A stretch of DNA of 64,000 nucleotides from Cognaticolwellia beringensis (GTDB lineage: Bacteria; Pseudomonadota; Gammaproteobacteria; Enterobacterales; Alteromonadaceae): contig NZ_CP020465.1 in NCBI RefSeq assembly GCF_002076895.1, forward strand, positions 3,906,001 to 3,970,000, written 5' to 3'. The position numbers and the translations under genes are program-made. This document shows, one piece after another, positions 16,357 to 52,271 of the stretch. The first letter of the stretch is position 1, and each line of letters opens with the position of its first letter. The notes beneath the pieces are model-generated. The model searched no databases and was not told where the DNA came from. It saw only the letters and a list, made by a program, of their open reading frames with translations.

Positions 16357-16482
16357 TTGCGCAGCTTTAATATAGCAATATCTCACTGAAAAGATTTTTA
16401 TCGAAGTTTGATAACAGTCTAAGATATTGTTGTACAGAACCAAGAGAGTTATTGCTTGGTTTACATCGTGGGTTCAGTGAAT

Positions 16483-16507
16483 AAGCCCCGCGTATTGGGG
16501 CTTTTTT
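16483..16507 (+). terminator. Leader terminator 1 upstream of rimP
   Basis: A 7-bp G/C-rich stem (AAGCCCC 16483-16489 with GGGGCTT 16497-16503) with the T-run at 16502-16507. It lies inside the presumed leader of the operon and so may act as an attenuator. Confidence 0.75.
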
Positions 16508-16554
16508 GTATCTTAACTTTGTGAAAAGGTGCAATAGCAGCAAGGTATATCGCT

Positions 16555-16574
16555 GGGCTTTAAGCCCTTTTTTT
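16555..16574 (+). terminator. Leader terminator 2 upstream of rimP
   Basis: GGGC (16555-16558) pairs with GCCC (16564-16567) over a 5-base loop, followed by seven T. It ends 33 bases before the rimP start and is shorter than the first leader hairpin. Confidence 0.6.
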
Positions 16575-22795: not shown

Positions 22796-22934
22796 TTGTC
22801 ACTATAATTAATAGGCTATCTGTTTAAGTTGCAATTGTAGCTATTATTGATAGAATACGCGCTCTTAGAACGTCTTGCTGATTTAGTGTTCGGCTTGACG
22901 CGATTTTTAAAACACTAAAATTAAGGTAAATATT

Positions 22935-23204
22935 ATGTCTTTAAACGCTACTGAAAAAGCGGCTATCGTTGCAGAATACGCACAAGCTGAAGGTGATACT
23001 GGTTCTCCAGAAGTACAAGTTGCTTTGTTAACTGTACAAATCAACCACTTACAAGGTCACTTCAAAGAGCACATCCATGATCACCACTCACGTCGTGGTT
23101 TATTACGCATGGTAAGCCAACGTCGTAAATTACTTGATTACTTAAAAGGCAAAAACGTTGAACGTTACACTGCTTTAATTGGTAAATTAGGTCTACGTCG
23201 TTAA
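22935..23204 (+). CDS. rpsO: 30S ribosomal protein S15
   Basis: The exact family length of 89 residues, with the conserved [17 protein letters not shown] and [21 protein letters not shown] segments. It binds 16S rRNA at the central-domain three-way junction. The 139-bp upstream spacer can hold its own promoter and leader; in E. coli S15 represses itself through an mRNA pseudoknot. A strong terminator follows at 23241-23266. Confidence 0.98.
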
Positions 23205-46410: not shown

Positions 46411-47577
46411 ATGAATTTGCATGAATATCAAGCGAAACAATTATTCGCTGAATATGGTTTACCAGTTTCTGAAGGTTTCGCTTGCGATACCGCTCAAGAA
46501 GCTGCCGAAGCTGCCGACAAAATTGGCGGCGATATGTGGGTTGTTAAAACTCAAGTACACGCGGGTGGCCGTGGTAAAGCTGGCGGTGTTAAGCTAGTTA
46601 AAAGCAAGCAAGAAATCAAAGATTTCGCGCAAAACTGGTTAGGTAAAAACTTAGTTACATACCAAACTGACGAACATGGTCAGCCAGTTGCTAAAATCTT
46701 AGTAGAAAGCTGTACAGATATTGCTAACGAATTGTATCTTGGTGCTGTTGTAGACCGTGCAAGTCGTAGAGTAGTATTCATGGCCTCTACTGAAGGCGGT
46801 GTTGACATTGAGAAGATTGCTGAAGAGACTCCTGAGTTAATTCACCAAGCTGAAATTGATCCACTAGTTGGTGCTCAACCATACCAAGCACGTGAATTAG
46901 GCTTCAAGTTAGGTTTAAACCCAACGCAAATGAAGCAATTTGTTAAGATCTTTTTAGGTCTTGCACAAATGTTTGAAGATTTCGATTTCGCTTTATTAGA
47001 AATCAATCCGTTAGTTATTACTGACGAAGGTAATCTTCACTGTCTAGATGGCAAAATTGGTATCGATGGTAATGCTTTGTACCGTCAACCTAAAATGCGC
47101 GCATTTCACGATCCATCTCAAGAAGATGAGCGTGAAGCACATGCAGCACGTTTTGAATTAAACTACGTAGCTTTAGATGGCAACGTTGGTTGTATGGTTA
47201 ACGGTGCAGGCCTAGCAATGGGTACTATGGATATCGTTAATTTACACGGCGGCAAGCCAGCTAACTTCTTAGATGTTGGCGGCGGGGCGACTAAAGAGCG
47301 TGTATCTGAAGCATTCAAAATCATTCTTTCTGACGACAACGTTAAAGCTGTTTTAGTTAACATCTTTGGTGGCATCGTACGTTGTGACATGATCGCTGAA
47401 GGTATTATCGCTGCAGTTAAAGATGTAGGCGTTCAAGTGCCTGTAGTTGTACGTTTAGAAGGTACAAACGCTGAAGAAGGTCGTGAAGTACTTAAGAAAT
47501 CTGGCTTAGACATCATTGCTGCTGAGTCATTAACTGATGCAGCAACTAAAGTTGTAGCAGCTGCGGAGGGCAAATAA
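46411..47577 (+). CDS. sucC: Succinyl-CoA synthetase beta subunit
   Basis: The 388 residues equal the E. coli length. The ATP-grasp domain includes [42 protein letters not shown] and [15 protein letters not shown]. The C-terminal CoA-ligase domain has [27 protein letters not shown] and [17 protein letters not shown]. The stop overlaps the sucD ATG by one base (TAATG). Confidence 0.98.
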
Positions 47578-48449
47578 TGTCTGTCTTAATTAATAAAGAT
47601 ACTAAAGTAATCTGTCAAGGTTTCACTGGTGGTCAAGGTACATTCCATTCAGAACAAGCACTTGAGTACGGTACACAAATGGTTGGTGGCGTAAGCCCAG
47701 GTAAAGGCGGTCAAACGCATTTAGGCCTTCCAGTATTCAATACAGTACGTGATGCAGTAGAAGCAACTGGCGCAACAGCTACAGTTATCTATGTTCCTGC
47801 ACCATTTTGTAAAGATGCAATTTTAGAAGCTATTGATGCAGGCATCGAGCTTATCGTTACTATCACTGAAGGTATTCCAACTTTAGATATGGTTGACGTT
47901 AAAGCTAAGCTTGATCAATCTGGCGTTCGTATGATCGGTCCTAACTGTCCAGGTGTTATTACTCCTGGCGAAACTAAGATTGGTATCATGCCTGGTCACA
48001 TTCACAAGCCTGGTAAAGTAGGTATTGTTTCACGTTCTGGTACACTTACGTACGAAGCCGTTAAACAAACTACAGATGCTGGTTTTGGCCAATCTACTTG
48101 TGTAGGTATTGGTGGTGACCCTATCCCTGGTACTAACTTCATCGACGTATTGGAAATGTTCCAAAACGATCCACAAACTGAAGCAATCGTAATGATTGGT
48201 GAAATTGGTGGAACAGCTGAAGAAGAAGCAGCGGAATACATCAAAGCACACGTTACTAAACCTGTAGTATCTTACATTGCTGGTGTTACTGCACCAGAAG
48301 GTAAGCGTATGGGTCACGCTGGCGCGATTATCGCCGGTGGTAAAGGTACAGCTGATGAGAAATTCGCAGCATTAGAAGCGGCTGGTGTTAAAACTGTACG
48401 TTCTTTAGCTGAGATTGGTTCAGCACTTAAAGAGAAAACAGGTTGGTAA
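47577..48449 (+). CDS. sucD: Succinyl-CoA synthetase alpha subunit
   Basis: The 290 residues comprise the CoA-binding Rossmann domain ([22 protein letters not shown]) and the ligase domain with the phospho-His loop in [38 protein letters not shown] is the conserved central segment. The SucCD complex makes the NTP of the TCA cycle. A strong terminator at 48482-48519 ends the operon. Confidence 0.98.
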
Positions 48450-48481: not shown

Positions 48482-48519
48482 AAAAACCCGCATTCTCTGA
48501 TGGATAGTGCGGGTTTTTT
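48482..48519 (+). terminator. Terminator of sdhCDAB-sucABCD
   Basis: A perfect 10-bp stem (48483-48492 with 48508-48517), 15-base loop, six T. Confidence 0.9.
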
Positions 48520-48543: not shown

Positions 48544-49407
48544 TTATTTTTGTCGATACTTGCCAAACTGTAAAGGATTTTGTTGGAATTGCTGTTTTTC
48601 ATTTAGCTCAGCGGTAATAATACTGTCCAATCTAGTTTCATTTTCTAACAAATACTCTATCCCACTATTTGTAATAGTAAAACCAAATCCTGTATTTCCA
48701 TTATTGTCTTCAGTGATGTTTCGGTCTACGTATCCAATTCGTATTAATTTGATTAAGGCTATTTGGAGTTGAGCTTCTGAAAAGGATAGTGCCTTTTGTT
48801 CAATATCCCAAAAGAACAAGCCGTTTGTAGAACTTGTGTGAGTGGAAAGTAGTTCAGATAGCAAACGGAGAGATTTATCATTAATAGAATATTCACTTTT
48901 AGATATCTTGGGTGTCATCAATTTATCGGTAGCTGAACTTCTATTAATGTTGCCAAGTTGGTCCATTTGCTCGGATATTTTTATACAAGCAGCATTGACC
49001 GCACAATTTAAATTTGTATCACTTCTACTTTCATCAAAATCTAAAGTATTAATTCCAGCTAAGTCACTAGCGATATATAACTCTATATTTCTAGGTTTCA
49101 GTATAAAACAACGTTCTTTTCCTATTGAACCAATAAAAAGTCCTAATTCAAAAAGCACATTGTCTCTAACTTTTGGGTGATTATTGCCTCGAACAGTTAT
49201 TACATCATCGGGCGAGAAAACAAATAAAGAAAAATCAACATTAGCAGCCTTAGTAATTAATGAACTCAAAGTATCACTGCCTGCCTTGTCAAAAGCATAC
49301 GGCCAATTTGACACTTCAGCTGACCGGTCTAACGCGACGTTGCATGCGTTAGCTATATCAATACTATCACTTGATGATCCAATAAAAATTCTTGGCTTAT
49401 TATTCAT
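48544..49407 (-). CDS. TIR-like predicted nucleotide-binding protein, solitary
   Basis: The 287 residues begin with a TIR-like fold (1-150): PRIFIGSSSDSIDIANAC, the WPYAFDKAGSDTLSSLI helix, VDFSLFVFSPDDVI, and RDNVLFELGLFIG with E87 at the position of the catalytic NADase Glu of TIR enzymes. A second half (about 170-287) looks like a winged helix (LSFSEAQLQIALIKLIRIGYVDRNI, GFGFTITNSGIEYLL) that may bind nucleic acid. TIR-like domains of this group (COG4271 type) occur in CBASS Cap12 and other anti-phage proteins, where they degrade NAD+. No cyclase or partner is adjacent. It starts about 70 bp from the repeat array. Function not established. Confidence 0.75.
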   Translation of the reverse strand: MNNKPRIFIGSSSDSIDIANACNVALDRSAEVSNWPYAFDKAGSDTLSSLITKAANVDFSLFVFSPDDVITVRGNNHPKVRDNVLFELGLFIGSIGKERCFILKPRNIELYIASDLAGINTLDFDESRSDTNLNCAVNAACIKISEQMDQLGNINRSSATDKLMTPKISKSEYSINDKSLRLLSELLSTHTSSTNGLFFWDIEQKALSFSEAQLQIALIKLIRIGYVDRNITEDNNGNTGFGFTITNSGIEYLLENETRLDSIITAELNEKQQFQQNPLQFGKYRQK

Positions 49408-49477
49408 GTTATCCCTTCGACTGCTTTTCTCATTATCATAAGCTTAGCAACTTATTTCTTTAAGTTATATGAAAAAT

Positions 49478-50083
49478 TAGAAGGACACCGACTCTAACTT
49501 AACTGCTTGGAGTTTAATTTATCTGCTTGGCGTCGCGGTGGCGACGACACCCAAAGGGAGGCTGACGCCGACCTCCCTCTGGACTCCCTCGGCGCTGCTG
49601 CATTAAACTTGTTTCCTTCATGACGTCCAATATTCTTCGACGTACCAGCGCTGAACGTACATCCATGTACTACATCGCTTTCACTGGCATCCATGCCAGT
49701 GATACGTGAATATTGGCCATCATTCCGGAGTTTAATGAAGCAGACTTGGCGTCTGGTTTATCTGTTGTGTTTATTCTTTAATATTTCAATAAACCGATTT
49801 GCTAAAGAACTACACCATAGAACTCACAAACTCCCGATCCCATCTCAGCAACGGAAACTTAATTTAGATAAGTGCGATGTTTATCGGAGCCATGGATGGC
49901 GTAGACTGCCGTGTGAAGGGACGATTTTCGGCAGGAATAAACATCGTGCCTAAATTCAGTTGGAGTGTTTTGCTGTGTAGGGCACAGTGGGGGATGCAAG
50001 GGGGAGATCTGTGTCTATCTCCCCCTTGCGTGTAGTCGCCACCGCGACGCCAAGCAGAGATTAAAACTCCAAGCGGTTGAGTT
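49478..50083. repeat. Structured repeat element, unit 1 (complete, about 600 bp)
   Basis: The element is bounded by long terminal inverted repeats: left 49500-49552 and right about 50029-50081 share the order GCTTGGAGTTT, then CTGCTTGGCGTCGCGGTGGCGA. Inside are, in order, a small hairpin (49555-49561 with 72-78), palindromic domain 1 (49595-49743; ends CTGCTGCATTAAAC and GTTTAATGAAGCAG), palindromic domain 2 (about 49844-49977), and a perfect 13-bp hairpin (49996-50008 with 50017-50029). The element is non-coding; the short frames in it vary between copies. GC is higher than in the surroundings. Confidence 0.85.
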
Positions 50084-50085
50084 AT

Positions 50086-50141
50086 GTATAAGTAGGGTCA
50101 GATACACATTAAGGCTTAATGCACGCTAATCTACCGTTGTC
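50086..50141. repeat. 56-bp junction module M, copy 1
   Basis: The module runs from AAGTAGGGTCAGATACAC to CTACCGTTGTC and contains the perfect palindrome CATTAAG-G-CTTAATG (50107-50121). Its last bases overlap the start of the next element's inner inverted repeat. The GGGTCAG start is reminiscent of ends recognised by REP-associated (Y1) transposases, but that is only a resemblance. Confidence 0.8.
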
Positions 50142-50722
50142 GCGGTGGCGACGACACCCAAAGGGAGGCTGACGCCGGCCTCCCTCTGGACTCCCTCGGC
50201 GCTGCTGCATTAAACGTGTTTCCTCCATGACGTTCAATATTCTTCGACGTACTAGCGCTGAACGCACTGCGCTCCTTGCCATCCATGGCATCGCGCTTTA
50301 CCGTTCATCCTAAACATAATCCATGCACTACAGCGCTTTCACTGGCATCCATGCCAGTGATACGTGAATATTGGCCATCATTCCGGCGTTTAATGAAGCA
50401 GACTTAGTGTTTGTTTCTTCGTTAGTAATTATTCTCAGTGATTTAGCTTTAACAGCTGTTACAGCGATCTCTAAATCCCATCACAGCAACGGAAACTTAA
50501 TTTAGATAAGTGCGATGTTTATCGGAGCCATGGATGGCGCAGACTGCCGTGTGAAGGGACGATTTTCGGCAGGAATAAACTTCGTGCCTAAATTCAGTTG
50601 GAGTGTTTTGCTGTGCAGGGCACAGTGGGGGATGCAAGGGGGAGATCTGTGTCTATCTCCCCCTTGCGTGTTGTCGCCACCGCGACGCCAAGCAGAAAAT
50701 TAAAACTCCAATCCGATAATTT
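50137..50722. repeat. Structured repeat element, unit 2 (left outer end replaced by module M)
   Basis: The body is closely similar to unit 1 from the GTCGCGGTGGCGACG segment through the right inverted repeat (50669-50710). Palindromic domain 1 (50202-50401) is about 50 bases longer than in the other copies because of an extra hairpin segment (TGCCATCCATGGCA at 50277-50290). Domain 2 spans 50482-50615, and the perfect 13-bp hairpin is 50634-50646 with 50655-50667. Confidence 0.85.
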
Positions 50723-50734
50723 TTCAATATTAGA

Positions 50735-50794
50735 CGGACACTCACTCTAAATTAATGGCTTGGAGTTTGTTTACTGGTTTGGCGTCGGCGTGCC
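50735..50794. repeat. Left terminal inverted repeat of unit 3
   Basis: GGACACTCACTCTAAATT through GCTTGGAGTTTG and GGCGTCGGCG matches the left end of units 1 and 4. It is cut off at 50794 by the second copy of module M. Confidence 0.75.
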
Positions 50795-50850
50795 TATTAA
50801 GTAGGGTCAGATACACATTAAGGCTTAATGCACGCTAATCTACCGTTGTC
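50795..50850. repeat. 56-bp junction module M, copy 2
   Basis: Nearly identical to copies 1 and 3, with the CATTAAG-G-CTTAATG palindrome at 50816-50830. It lies between the interrupted left end and the body of unit 3. Confidence 0.8.
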
Positions 50851-51213
50851 GCGGTGGCGACGACACCCAAAGGGAGGCTGACGCCGACCTCCCTCTGGAC
50901 TCCCTCGGCGCTGCTGCATTAAACGTGTTTCCTCCATGATGCCCAATATTCTTCAACGTACCAGTGCTGATGGCACATCCATGTGCCAACAGCACTTTCA
51001 CTGGCATCCATGCCAGTGATACGTGAATATTGGGCATCATTCCGGCGTTTAATGAAGCAGACTTGGTGTCTGGTTTATCTGTTGTGTTTATTCTTTAATA
51101 TTTCAATAAACCAGTTTGCTAAATAACTACACCATAGAACTCACAAACTATTGATCCCATCACAGCAATGGAAACTGAATTTAGATAAGTGCGATGTTTA
51201 TCGGAGCCATGGA
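50846..51213. repeat. Structured repeat element, unit 3 body (right end truncated)
   Basis: Contains the small hairpin, domain 1 (50911-51060) and the first third of domain 2, breaking off at the GCCATGGA segment where copy 3 of module M begins. The variable hairpin here is TGGCACAT-CC-ATGTGCCA (50971-50988), enclosed by AGTGCTG/CAGCACT, which differ from unit 4 by compensating changes. Confidence 0.85.
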
Positions 51214-51269
51214 TATTAAGTAGGGTCAGATACACATTAAGGCTTAATGCACGCTAATCTAACGTTGTC
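51214..51269. repeat. 56-bp junction module M, copy 3
   Basis: Third copy, with the palindrome at 51235-51249 and one substitution near its end (CTAACGTTGTC). It replaces the missing right half of unit 3. Confidence 0.8.
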
Positions 51270-51280
51270 TCGGTAATATA

Positions 51281-51716
51281 AGAAGGACACTCACTCTAAA
51301 TTGACAGGCTTGGAGTTTGTTTGCTGGTTTGGCGTCGGGGTGCCGACTACACCCAGAGAGGGTTAAACGCCGAACCCTCTCTGGACTCACCCGTCGCTGC
51401 AACATTAAACGTGTTTCCTCCATGACGCCCAATATTCTTCGACGTACCAGCGCTGAACGTGCATCCCTGCACTACAGCGCTTTCACTGGCATCCATGCCA
51501 GTGATACGTGAATATTGGTCATCATTCCGGCGTTTAATGAAGCAGACTTGGTGTTTGTTTCTTCTCCTGAGTTTATTCTTTAATAATTCAATATATAAGT
51601 TTGCTGAATAAGCACCACGGGGAGTCCAGAGGGGCTTTTGTGGCGTGTAACGCCCCTCTGGGTGTTGTCGCCACCGCGACGCCAGACAGTAAAATATGCT
51701 CCAAGCCGTTCAATTT
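51281..51716. repeat. Structured repeat element, unit 4 (short form lacking domain 2)
   Basis: Left inverted repeat 51281-51352 and right inverted repeat about 51663-51716. The left small hairpin is a perfect 12-bp stem of different sequence (51353-51364 with 51373-51384). Domain 1 is 51397-51545. The right hairpin is a perfect 10-bp stem (51626-51635 with 51652-51661), again unlike that of units 1 and 2. Domain 2 is absent. Confidence 0.85.
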
Positions 51717-51807
51717 ATTAAACTAGAGCCCACATACACTAACTTAAAATCAATGGGGTCAGGGGATTTTGATTTCTTCTGTAGAATTTATTTAGGCATT
51801 ATCAGTC

Positions 51808-51862
51808 AAAATTGACAGGCTTGGAGTTTGTTTGCTGGTTTGGCGTCGGGGTGCCGACTACA
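51808..51862. repeat. Isolated left inverted repeat, unit 5 remnant
   Basis: About 54 bases identical to 51299-51352 (left end of unit 4), followed by unrelated DNA. It ends 85 bp before the RraB-like gene. A GGGGTCAG sequence at 51754-51761 lies just before it. Confidence 0.8.
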
Positions 51863-51947
51863 ACCATTAAATATATTTTGTTTTCTATTCATTTAAAACA
51901 TTGCCGTTTATAATACCGCCATTAATTTTATAGCTTTGAAGAGTAAT

Positions 51948-52271
51948 ATGAACTTCCCAAAAGATGACACCGGTAAAGTATTGTTTGAAATGCAAAAGGC
52001 AGGTATTGATTTAACTGTGATGCATACTATCGTTTTCTTTCACTTATTTGAAACACCAGAACAAGCAGCGGCTATGGCGGCATATCTTGCTGAAATAGCA
52101 CCTGATCTTATTTGTCATGTTCACATTGATGAAAATCCAAAAATATGGCATTTAGATTGTTCCATAACAATAATTCCTCTTTACGATGCAATTATTGCTC
52201 AGGAAGCTAAGTTTGAGCAAATAGTATCGCAGTTTAAAGGGTATACGGATGGTTGGGGAATTGAAGCCTAA
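51948..52271 (+). CDS. RraB-like protein (ribonuclease E inhibitor family)
   Basis: The 107 residues resemble the RraB fold: an N-terminal helix with KDDTGKVLFEMQKAGIDLT, the beta strand HTIVFFHLFETPEQAAAMAAYL, an acidic middle, and a C-terminal FKGYTDGWGIEA that matches the YDGWG signature of RraB. RraB binds RNase E and lowers its activity. Similarity is partial, so this is a family-level call. I chose ATG 51948 with GAAGAG upstream over a TTG at 51936. A TATAAT at 51909-51914 may be its -10. It sits at the right edge of the repeat array, and a good terminator follows. Confidence 0.7.
   Translation: MNFPKDDTGKVLFEMQKAGIDLTVMHTIVFFHLFETPEQAAAMAAYLAEIAPDLICHVHIDENPKIWHLDCSITIIPLYDAIIAQEAKFEQIVSQFKGYTDGWGIEA

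Follow-up and report, generated by a model that had tools for sequence, protein, structure and literature searches.

What are the repeated, non-coding elements that stand head to tail between sucD and rraB in Cognaticolwellia beringensis, and what do they do beside a gene that differs from species to species? The array runs from 49473 to 51866 in the window, the stretch of 64,000 nucleotides that was analysed (contig NZ_CP020465.1 of assembly GCF_002076895.1, positions 3,906,001 to 3,970,000 of the forward strand); coordinates without a locus name refer to this window. A first-pass annotation, made from the sequence letters, had described it as multi-hairpin repeat elements with compensatory arm changes. 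The motif itself is already known, as the RNA family TwoAYGGAY (Rfam RF01731); new is the locus sucD-[X]-array-rraB in the genus of the window, X being the variable gene. On balance, we read the array as tandem composite TwoAYGGAY elements, portable docking RNAs of the Csr/Rsm system that in marine bacteria would border exchangeable, often defence-like, genes.

Fold and family of the repeat units

The Rfam search gave three matches to RF01731, all on the minus strand: 50936-51047 (66 bits), 49613-49730 (42.5 bits) and 51415-51532 (42.4 bits). The cut-off of the family is 43 bits; unit 3 of the array lies above it, units 1 and 4 just below it, and unit 2 was without a match. The alignments to RF01731 and to our own covariance model R1 (described below) showed the pair of AYGGAY-loop hairpins side by side; in unit 4, one of the loops reads AGGGAT. 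The first-pass annotation knew of no described family and was wrong on this point, as the Rfam check that it had itself proposed showed; the loop that it gave as ATCCAT is AYGGAY in its ATGGAT form, reverse-complemented, and reads that way because the RNA is on the minus strand. A table in PMC2864571 lists TwoAYGGAY as probably an RNA and probably not cis-regulatory, with no function given, the Rfam type label is Cis-reg, and the accessible text of PMC4333381 mentions a CsrA role proposed earlier from motif matches. As far as the accessible text of these two papers goes, the family as described and the array share two adjacent AYGGAY-loop hairpins in a closing helix, whereas inverted composite units, arrays and a link to exchangeable defence-like genes are seen only here. 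Arrays, inverted units or defence genes were not found mentioned in the accessible literature on TwoAYGGAY, in a search that covered few subscription journals.

A repeat finder resolved the array into four units related to one another, plus a fragment of a left end, confirming the repeat array that had been described. Direct repeat D1 was present in four copies, three of them 64-95% identical to the one taken as reference; D3 was present in four and D5 in two; D6 and D8 are the unit ends, including the fragment. The copies are related but not regular, the core of unit 2 carrying an insertion (50273-50378) and unit 3 being cut off at about 51217. The outer arms AGTGCTG/CAGCACT of unit 3 and AGCGCTG/CAGCGCT of unit 4 were indeed present, as were the inner hairpins GTACAT/ATGTAC (unit 1), TGGCACAT/ATGTGCCA (unit 3) and GTGCA/TGCAC (unit 4), the small left stem AGGGAGG/CCTCCCT of units 1-3 and the different 12-bp stem of unit 4; hairpin pairing is kept in general, with an imperfect outer arm in unit 1 (AGCGCTG / CATCGCT). 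Units 1 and 2 are palindrome-like structures of about 600 bp, in which inverted ends enclose a left-pointing TwoAYGGAY arm, a spacer and a divergent right-pointing arm. This inverted composite structure and the neighbouring variable-gene locus were absent from the earlier description. The loops of the right arm of unit 1 read ATGGAT and AAGGGACG, and the right arms of units 1 and 2 align with congener right arms in locus L196 that score 36.4 bits; no right arm was recognised by R1 in unit 4. In the genome of C. beringensis (4.66 Mb) every match, 10 by blastn, 3 to RF01731 and 4 to R1, fell within the array locus.

Covariation was followed in two alignments. A2 holds 28 core copies, aligned by sequence alone, and was the source of R1; RNAalifold predicted 29 pairs in it, of which 27 had compensatory double changes. 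A covariance model was used because a simple two-hairpin scan returned too few cores (40 in 901 kb, 1 in shuffled sequence). Run on selected loci totalling 965 kb, R1 gave 185 matches (E <= 1), the best 150 of which formed A3, with 141 distinct rows; loci L060-L135 had been picked for holding RF01731 matches and come mostly from high-scoring genomes. In A3, which was fitted to the model and hence is biased towards it (A2 was not so aligned), double changes occurred in 28 of the 29 pairs, 92.1% of the cells were paired compared with 60.7% in shuffles, and the covariation score was 0.792, compared with 0.217 in shuffles and 0.09-0.14 in slid controls. Mispairs on the Rfam strand were 140 G-T and 26 A-C in A3 (ratio 1.0-1.6 with partners slid by 1-3 columns) and 44 G-T and 11 A-C in A2 (slid ratio 0.8-1.5). 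This asymmetry argues for folding of one strand, as RNA or as single-stranded DNA of that strand, and against a cruciform. Selection of one strand as a fold, which the first-pass annotation had proposed, is strongly supported by the double changes and the strand-specific wobble, and each arm is most likely a strand-specific RNA fold. The left arm of unit 1 folded with z = -6.0 (0 of 200 shuffles equally good) and its right arm with z = -2.45 (1 of 200). Recombinant blocks, offered earlier as what might explain the arm differences, do not account for them, since the pairing holds across the 141 distinct copies from several genera. A coding explanation was rejected as well: the open reading frames (ORFs) across the units are short and the sequence changes follow the pairing.

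GGA was present in both loops in 138 of the 141 rows, loop 1 being counted across the whole loop stretch, including ten rows with long insertions. Loop 2 read ANGGAN in 138 rows, and in 84 it was exactly ACANGGAUGU. The distance between the two GGA is 25-83 nt (median 27), with 132 of the 138 distances within 10-63 nt, so that hairpin-loop GGA at the spacing of CsrA sites was found, partly ascertained by the model. According to the accessible text of PMC7652899, one CsrA dimer bridges sites 10-63 nt apart, the CsrA consensus from systematic evolution of ligands by exponential enrichment (SELEX) is RUACARGGAUGU, and ANGGAN is the hexaloop of RsmE ligands. From their loops and spacing, the two hairpins of an arm look like a CsrA docking site. 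The csrA gene was present in 22 of 22 motif-bearing genomes tested.

An order-wide RF01731 search, with strict filters and at most six candidates scored per genome, gave matches in 91 of 394 genomes at E <= 0.001, 72 of them above the cut-off. Chosen positives were rescored with up to 54 candidates per genome, and all 38 matched, with 1 to 36 matches each. Most copies were found in Psychromonas (f11 g29), with 8 to 36 matches in the nine genomes rescored. Plasmid and phage collections gave no match except 53 bases in one Ilyobacter replicon, and viral contigs, searched with exact patterns only, gave nothing useful. The 53 bases lie in a Psychromonas right arm (L079 7384-7727) and match an Ilyobacter polytropus replicon at 92.5%, in a record with six matching places.

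Variable genes beside and between the arms

In 17 genomes of the genus of the window, R1 scored 150 of the 406-703 first-look candidates per genome. Sixteen of the 17 matched, 14 of them within a few kb after sucD; G395 (66.5 bits) and G399 (40.3 bits) had their match on contigs that were not fetched, and G400 had none. All matches above 45 bits were at the sucD-rraB locus, except that of G395, and weaker matches elsewhere occurred in G396, G397, G398 and G403. The locus was fetched from 14 congeners and, outside the genus, from G410. In 13 of these 15 relatives, as in the window, sucD and its terminator are followed by a single gene or a pair, varying from species to species, and then by the array; the array is absent in L199, and rraB follows in 12 of the 15.

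In the window X resembles TIR effectors, with PADLOC matches to TIR Effector (4.5e-40) and PycTIR (6.9e-28). Elsewhere X carries Mrr endonuclease domains (L192, L194), DUF4062 (L196) or DUF2971 (L198 and L200, PADLOC PDC-S31), is a ParE/Phd pair (L193, and by eye L199) or an HNH-like gene (L195, matched by PADLOC only at E 0.0009), or is without a Pfam match (L190, L191, L197, L203 and two ORFs of L201); L189 and L202 have no gene there. A defence or toxin-antitoxin domain was present in 7 of 14 X. The genes after sucD in L190, L191, L197 and L203, with neither a Pfam nor a PADLOC match, are candidate unknown defence genes. An early idea that X always lies between arms was dropped, X sitting outside the arms in this genus.

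The sucD terminator was kept in all 16 sequences, with a varying loop, and most sequences diverge right after it; L193, L199 and partly L189 share a stretch beyond it. Selection on the terminator alone can explain this border. Insertion straight after terminators was dropped as a rule, since elsewhere the outer end is often tens of bases past the terminator. The right border of the variable locus is the rraB promoter. In L199 the junction holds a short piece of the left end of a unit, by which the array was probably lost there. As a control, seven first genes after sucD outside the genus were taken; none matched PADLOC at 1e-5, four had ordinary Pfam domains (CAAX protease-like, GGDEF, transporter, AAA/nucleotidyltransferase) and three had none. 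Among the 13 stretches L176-L188 a motif match was found only in L180 (G006), within the 1.5 kb fetched. There (L180 442-1260) an unknown 272-aa gene follows sucD, and then a TwoAYGGAY match of 54.9 bits. The 409-aa gene of L179, without motif, shows that the gene after sucD can vary without the motif too.

Inverted pairs of arms that bracket genes were found mainly in Psychromonas. Only R1 matches of at least 30 bits entered the counts of adjacent pairs, gene gaps, sense and antisense orientation and outermost arms, and the window was excluded from the last three. Adjacent matches formed 69 pairs in the same direction; opposite pairs were -/+ in 29 cases and +/- in 3 (p 2.6e-6). An ORF of at least 100 aa was enclosed in 17 -/+ intervals and in 1 +/- interval (p 1.4e-4); both p values are optimistic, the copies being related and not independent. 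Same-direction neighbours had an ORF between them in 21 pairs. The 17 bracketing intervals lie in 16 loci (15 of Psychromonas, and L072 of another family) and hold 43 ORFs of at least 80 aa.

At least 12 of the 43 bracketed ORFs, in 10 of the 17 intervals, matched PADLOC, compared with at most 3 of 43 flanking control ORFs, which were generic by eye (Fisher p 0.02). The controls were a random draw from 90 eligible ORFs, from which the closest gene to the array on each side had been excluded. Twenty bracketed proteins, chosen and not random, were scanned singly, and 11 of them matched at 1e-5; the remaining 22 of the 43 appeared only in the pooled table. The bracketed ORF of L072 also matched, through a trypsin-type domain that is possibly generic. 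Proteins were counted instead of PADLOC families, whose total (176 vs 3) is inflated by two L099 proteins that make up as many as 135 of the 176. By Pfam the bracketed ORFs also included KAP, GmrSD, HEPN, SLATT and SocA-Panacea domains, and further an IS91-type transposase pair, LysE and acetyltransferases, so that the cargo is not only defence. In L077 (5169-10368) the arms enclose a 311-aa gene flanked by two copies of the IS91-type transposase and an integrase-like partner, with identical proteins.

Different cargo at one site was seen between nrdD and nrdG of Psychromonas. Twenty-four genomes were searched and 23 had a match, 18 of the 23 without the motif in 1.5 kb on either side. In G138 (L079) the order is arm LE, an 887-aa PHP/ATPase gene (PADLOC Ppl), arm RE and nrdG, and in G076 (L205) it is LE, a DUF2971 gene, RE, lysE and nrdG. 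LE and RE are each about 84-85% identical between the two genomes, and the alignment breaks at the inner ends of the arms. At the same nrdD end L206 carries AbiD, left of the arms, L207 a BstA homologue between arms (nrdG was not found within 8 kb) and L154 a ThsB-type TIR, with no motif in the stretch fetched; G237 (L142) has a lone arm.

With regard to neighbouring genes, 42 of 103 element sites lay between convergent genes, whereas the remaining gene gaps in these loci were convergent in 68 of 524 cases. Of the outermost arms, 88 of 117 pointed at the 3' end of a gene (background 0.47; p 3e-10).

Possible function and alternative explanations

In the mechanism that we propose, the closing helix of an arm holds two adjacent hairpins whose ANGGAN-type loops, about 27 nt apart, could be bridged by one CsrA/RsmA dimer. 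The elements would act as borders of gene exchange, beside X at sucD-rraB and as inverted pairs around cargo in Psychromonas. Exchange of an incoming gene may run through homologous recombination, in both the border repeats and the host flanks; transcripts leaving the cassette or crossing the array would then carry GGA hairpins that CsrA may bind, and through such binding the Csr/Rsm circuit of the host would be linked to how the newcomer is expressed or read through, or to free CsrA itself. Control of phage defence by Rsm/Csr is described in the accessible text of PMC8450108 and PMC11888443. We put forward only tentatively the stronger version, Csr-wired innate-immunity cassettes in which anti-phage genes would travel between inverted CsrA-dimer docking RNAs and come at once under Csr/Rsm control. 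The core defence hotspots of Pseudomonas, as far as the accessible text of PMC10250203 describes them, likewise have variable defence genes between fixed core genes, whereas here a defined structured repeat marks the border. An orphan Rfam family gains a concrete context, exchangeable and often defence-like genes, and the earlier CsrA idea is sharpened. The repeat also offers a sequence handle for defence-gene discovery, the candidates being bracketed ORFs that PADLOC does not match and X genes that neither Pfam nor PADLOC matches. The proposed reading, if true, would also reveal a way in which defences gained by horizontal transfer could come directly under a regulatory circuit of the host.

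Several observations weigh against this reading of the array. Both models reward GGA loops, so that the loop conservation is partly ascertained, and hairpin 1 has nine contiguous pairs in the model, compared with mostly four or fewer in the SELEX ligands (PMC7652899, accessible text). CsrA is common in the order, and its presence is therefore consistent but not discriminating. No CsrB/Rsm family of Rfam matched anywhere in the window at gathering scores, and a promoter scan found no excess of sigma-70-like sites (9 found, 8.0 expected); terminator-like sites were not in excess either. In co-directional gaps the motif was antisense to its neighbours 59 times and sense 24 times, which argues against the motif serving simply as a leader of adjacent mRNAs; the RNA would more likely come from read-out of the cassette or from a transcript of its own. 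The presence of cargo is not general, as no mapped locus of genus f7 g25 brackets an ORF, and X of the window itself lies outside the element and not between its arms. PADLOC at 1e-5 was matched by 4 of the 14 X proteins scanned (the window, L192, L198 and L200), and 303 of the 394 genomes of the order had no match under the strict filters.

A doubtful, still credible, alternative is a non-autonomous mobile element, such as a miniature inverted-repeat transposable element (MITE) or a mobile insertion cassette, whose structured ends would be cut in trans by a transposase, with cargo moving along and the fold selected as single-stranded DNA. In mobile insertion cassettes and MITE pairs, passenger genes lie between inverted ends with no shared transposase inside, and the elements described here are alike in this; they differ in that the arm ends hold a covarying, strand-specific fold, and neither a target-site duplication, by eye, nor a partner transposase, among the bracketed ORFs, was found. 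The terminal inverted repeats agree with such an element, as do inverted arms that occur with or without cargo, the many copies per Psychromonas genome (8 to 36 in the nine rescored), the strong bias of sites to gene 3' ends (88 of 117) and nrdD-nrdG arms that are present in some species and not in others. However, no target-site duplication was seen by eye at the outer ends, the exact outer end being uncertain. The 43 bracketed ORFs had no shared transposase (among 25 of 31 families listed; whole genomes were not searched for one), and the only transposase named among them belongs to the duplicated IS91-type insertion sequence of L077. Moreover, matches above 45 bits in the genus of the window occur at one locus, except the one in G395 (site not fetched), and plasmids and phages gave no match beyond the 53 bases of Ilyobacter.

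Two further explanations were considered. We consider it unlikely that the array is one CsrB-like small RNA that titrates CsrA, with the variable gene incidental and sucD-rraB merely a permissive site. Its GGA hairpins do stand in tandem, a Csr small RNA with 21 GGA motifs is described in Pseudoalteromonas (PMC9927453, accessible text), and a CsrA role was raised earlier for TwoAYGGAY (PMC4333381). The decoy RNAs CsrB, CsrC and RsmX/Y/Z share with it the hairpin-loop GGA and the CsrA-dimer spacing, as far as the accessible part of PMC4333381 covers them; the array differs in having no Rfam match to those families, in being repeated and in standing at borders of gene exchange. The missing excess of promoter- or terminator-like sites speaks against a decoy, as do copy numbers that range from 0 (G400) to 36 (G125) per genome. 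Highly improbable is an integron-like system, in which the arms would be folded, attC-like recombination sites for an integron integrase. It would fit a strand-specific element in which structure rather than sequence is conserved, with cargo of often one or two genes, and integrase TIGR02249 scored above its cut-off in 21 of 28 motif-bearing genomes; but the integrase was equally common without a motif match (20 of 23 genomes), and the attC reading, being largely refuted, was rejected. Opposite sites face outward (29 vs 3 pairs; with cargo, 17 outward and 1 inward), and the pair orientations did not give a direct-repeat array of gene plus attC; attC itself was not searched for. In C. beringensis the integrase lies 0.67 Mb away. 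This match (C1:4628967-4629914, 447.2 bits) contains one in-frame TAG.

Features of the locus

The features of the array and its flanks are collected in Table 1. The end repeats of unit 1 were assembled from inverted repeats I1, I6 and I23 of the repeat finder.

Table 1. Array units, arms and flanking genes (R1, covariance model of this study).
Feature	Position	Strand	Remarks
sucD (succinyl-CoA ligase alpha)	47577-48449	+	ORF named from its own sequence; conserved left border of variable locus
sucD terminator	48482-48519		follows sucD
Gene X of the window	48544-49407	-	CAP12-PCTIR TIR domain, TIR-effector-like defence gene; Pfam PF10137, E 5.6e-27
Unit 1	49473-50084		complete; inverted end repeats 49496-49558 / 50022-50084
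Unit 1 hairpins	49555-49578; 49996-50029		left; right (13 bp)
Unit 1 left arm, TwoAYGGAY RNA	49626-49720	-	RF01731 42.5 bits, E 7.6e-5; R1 62.6 bits
Unit 1 right arm, divergent TwoAYGGAY-like	49870-49948	+	R1 10.7 bits, E 0.038 (weak)
Unit 2	50131-50722		core interrupted by insertion (repeat finder, blastn)
Unit 2 left arm	50273-50378	-	R1 32.4 bits, E 4e-10
Unit 2 right arm	50508-50586	+	R1 12.7 bits, E 0.0073
Unit 3	50726-51217		left end interrupted by small repeat 50799-50847; 3' part missing
Unit 3 left arm, TwoAYGGAY RNA	50942-51037	-	RF01731 66 bits, E 3.6e-10; R1 76.6 bits
Unit 4	51275-51717		inverted ends 51297-51361 / 51653-51717
Unit 4 hairpins	51353-51384; ~51626-51661		left (own 12-bp stem); right
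Unit 4 left arm, TwoAYGGAY RNA	51428-51522	-	RF01731 42.4 bits, E 8.3e-5; R1 63.5 bits
Left-end fragment (fifth unit)	51802-51866		95% identical to unit 4 end (D6)
rraB	51936-52271	+	PF06877; promoter region is conserved right border of variable locus

A near-identical stretch of about 50 bases, starting AAGTAGGGTCAGATACACATTAAGG, was found at three unit junctions (50090-50138, 50799-50847 and 51218-51266), where it cuts into the units; apparently this is a further small repeat, of the GGGTCAGAT type. Elsewhere on the plus strand of the window, Rfam matched an S15 leader (22870-22991, 71.4 bits) and a rimP leader (16451-16574, 50.7 bits).

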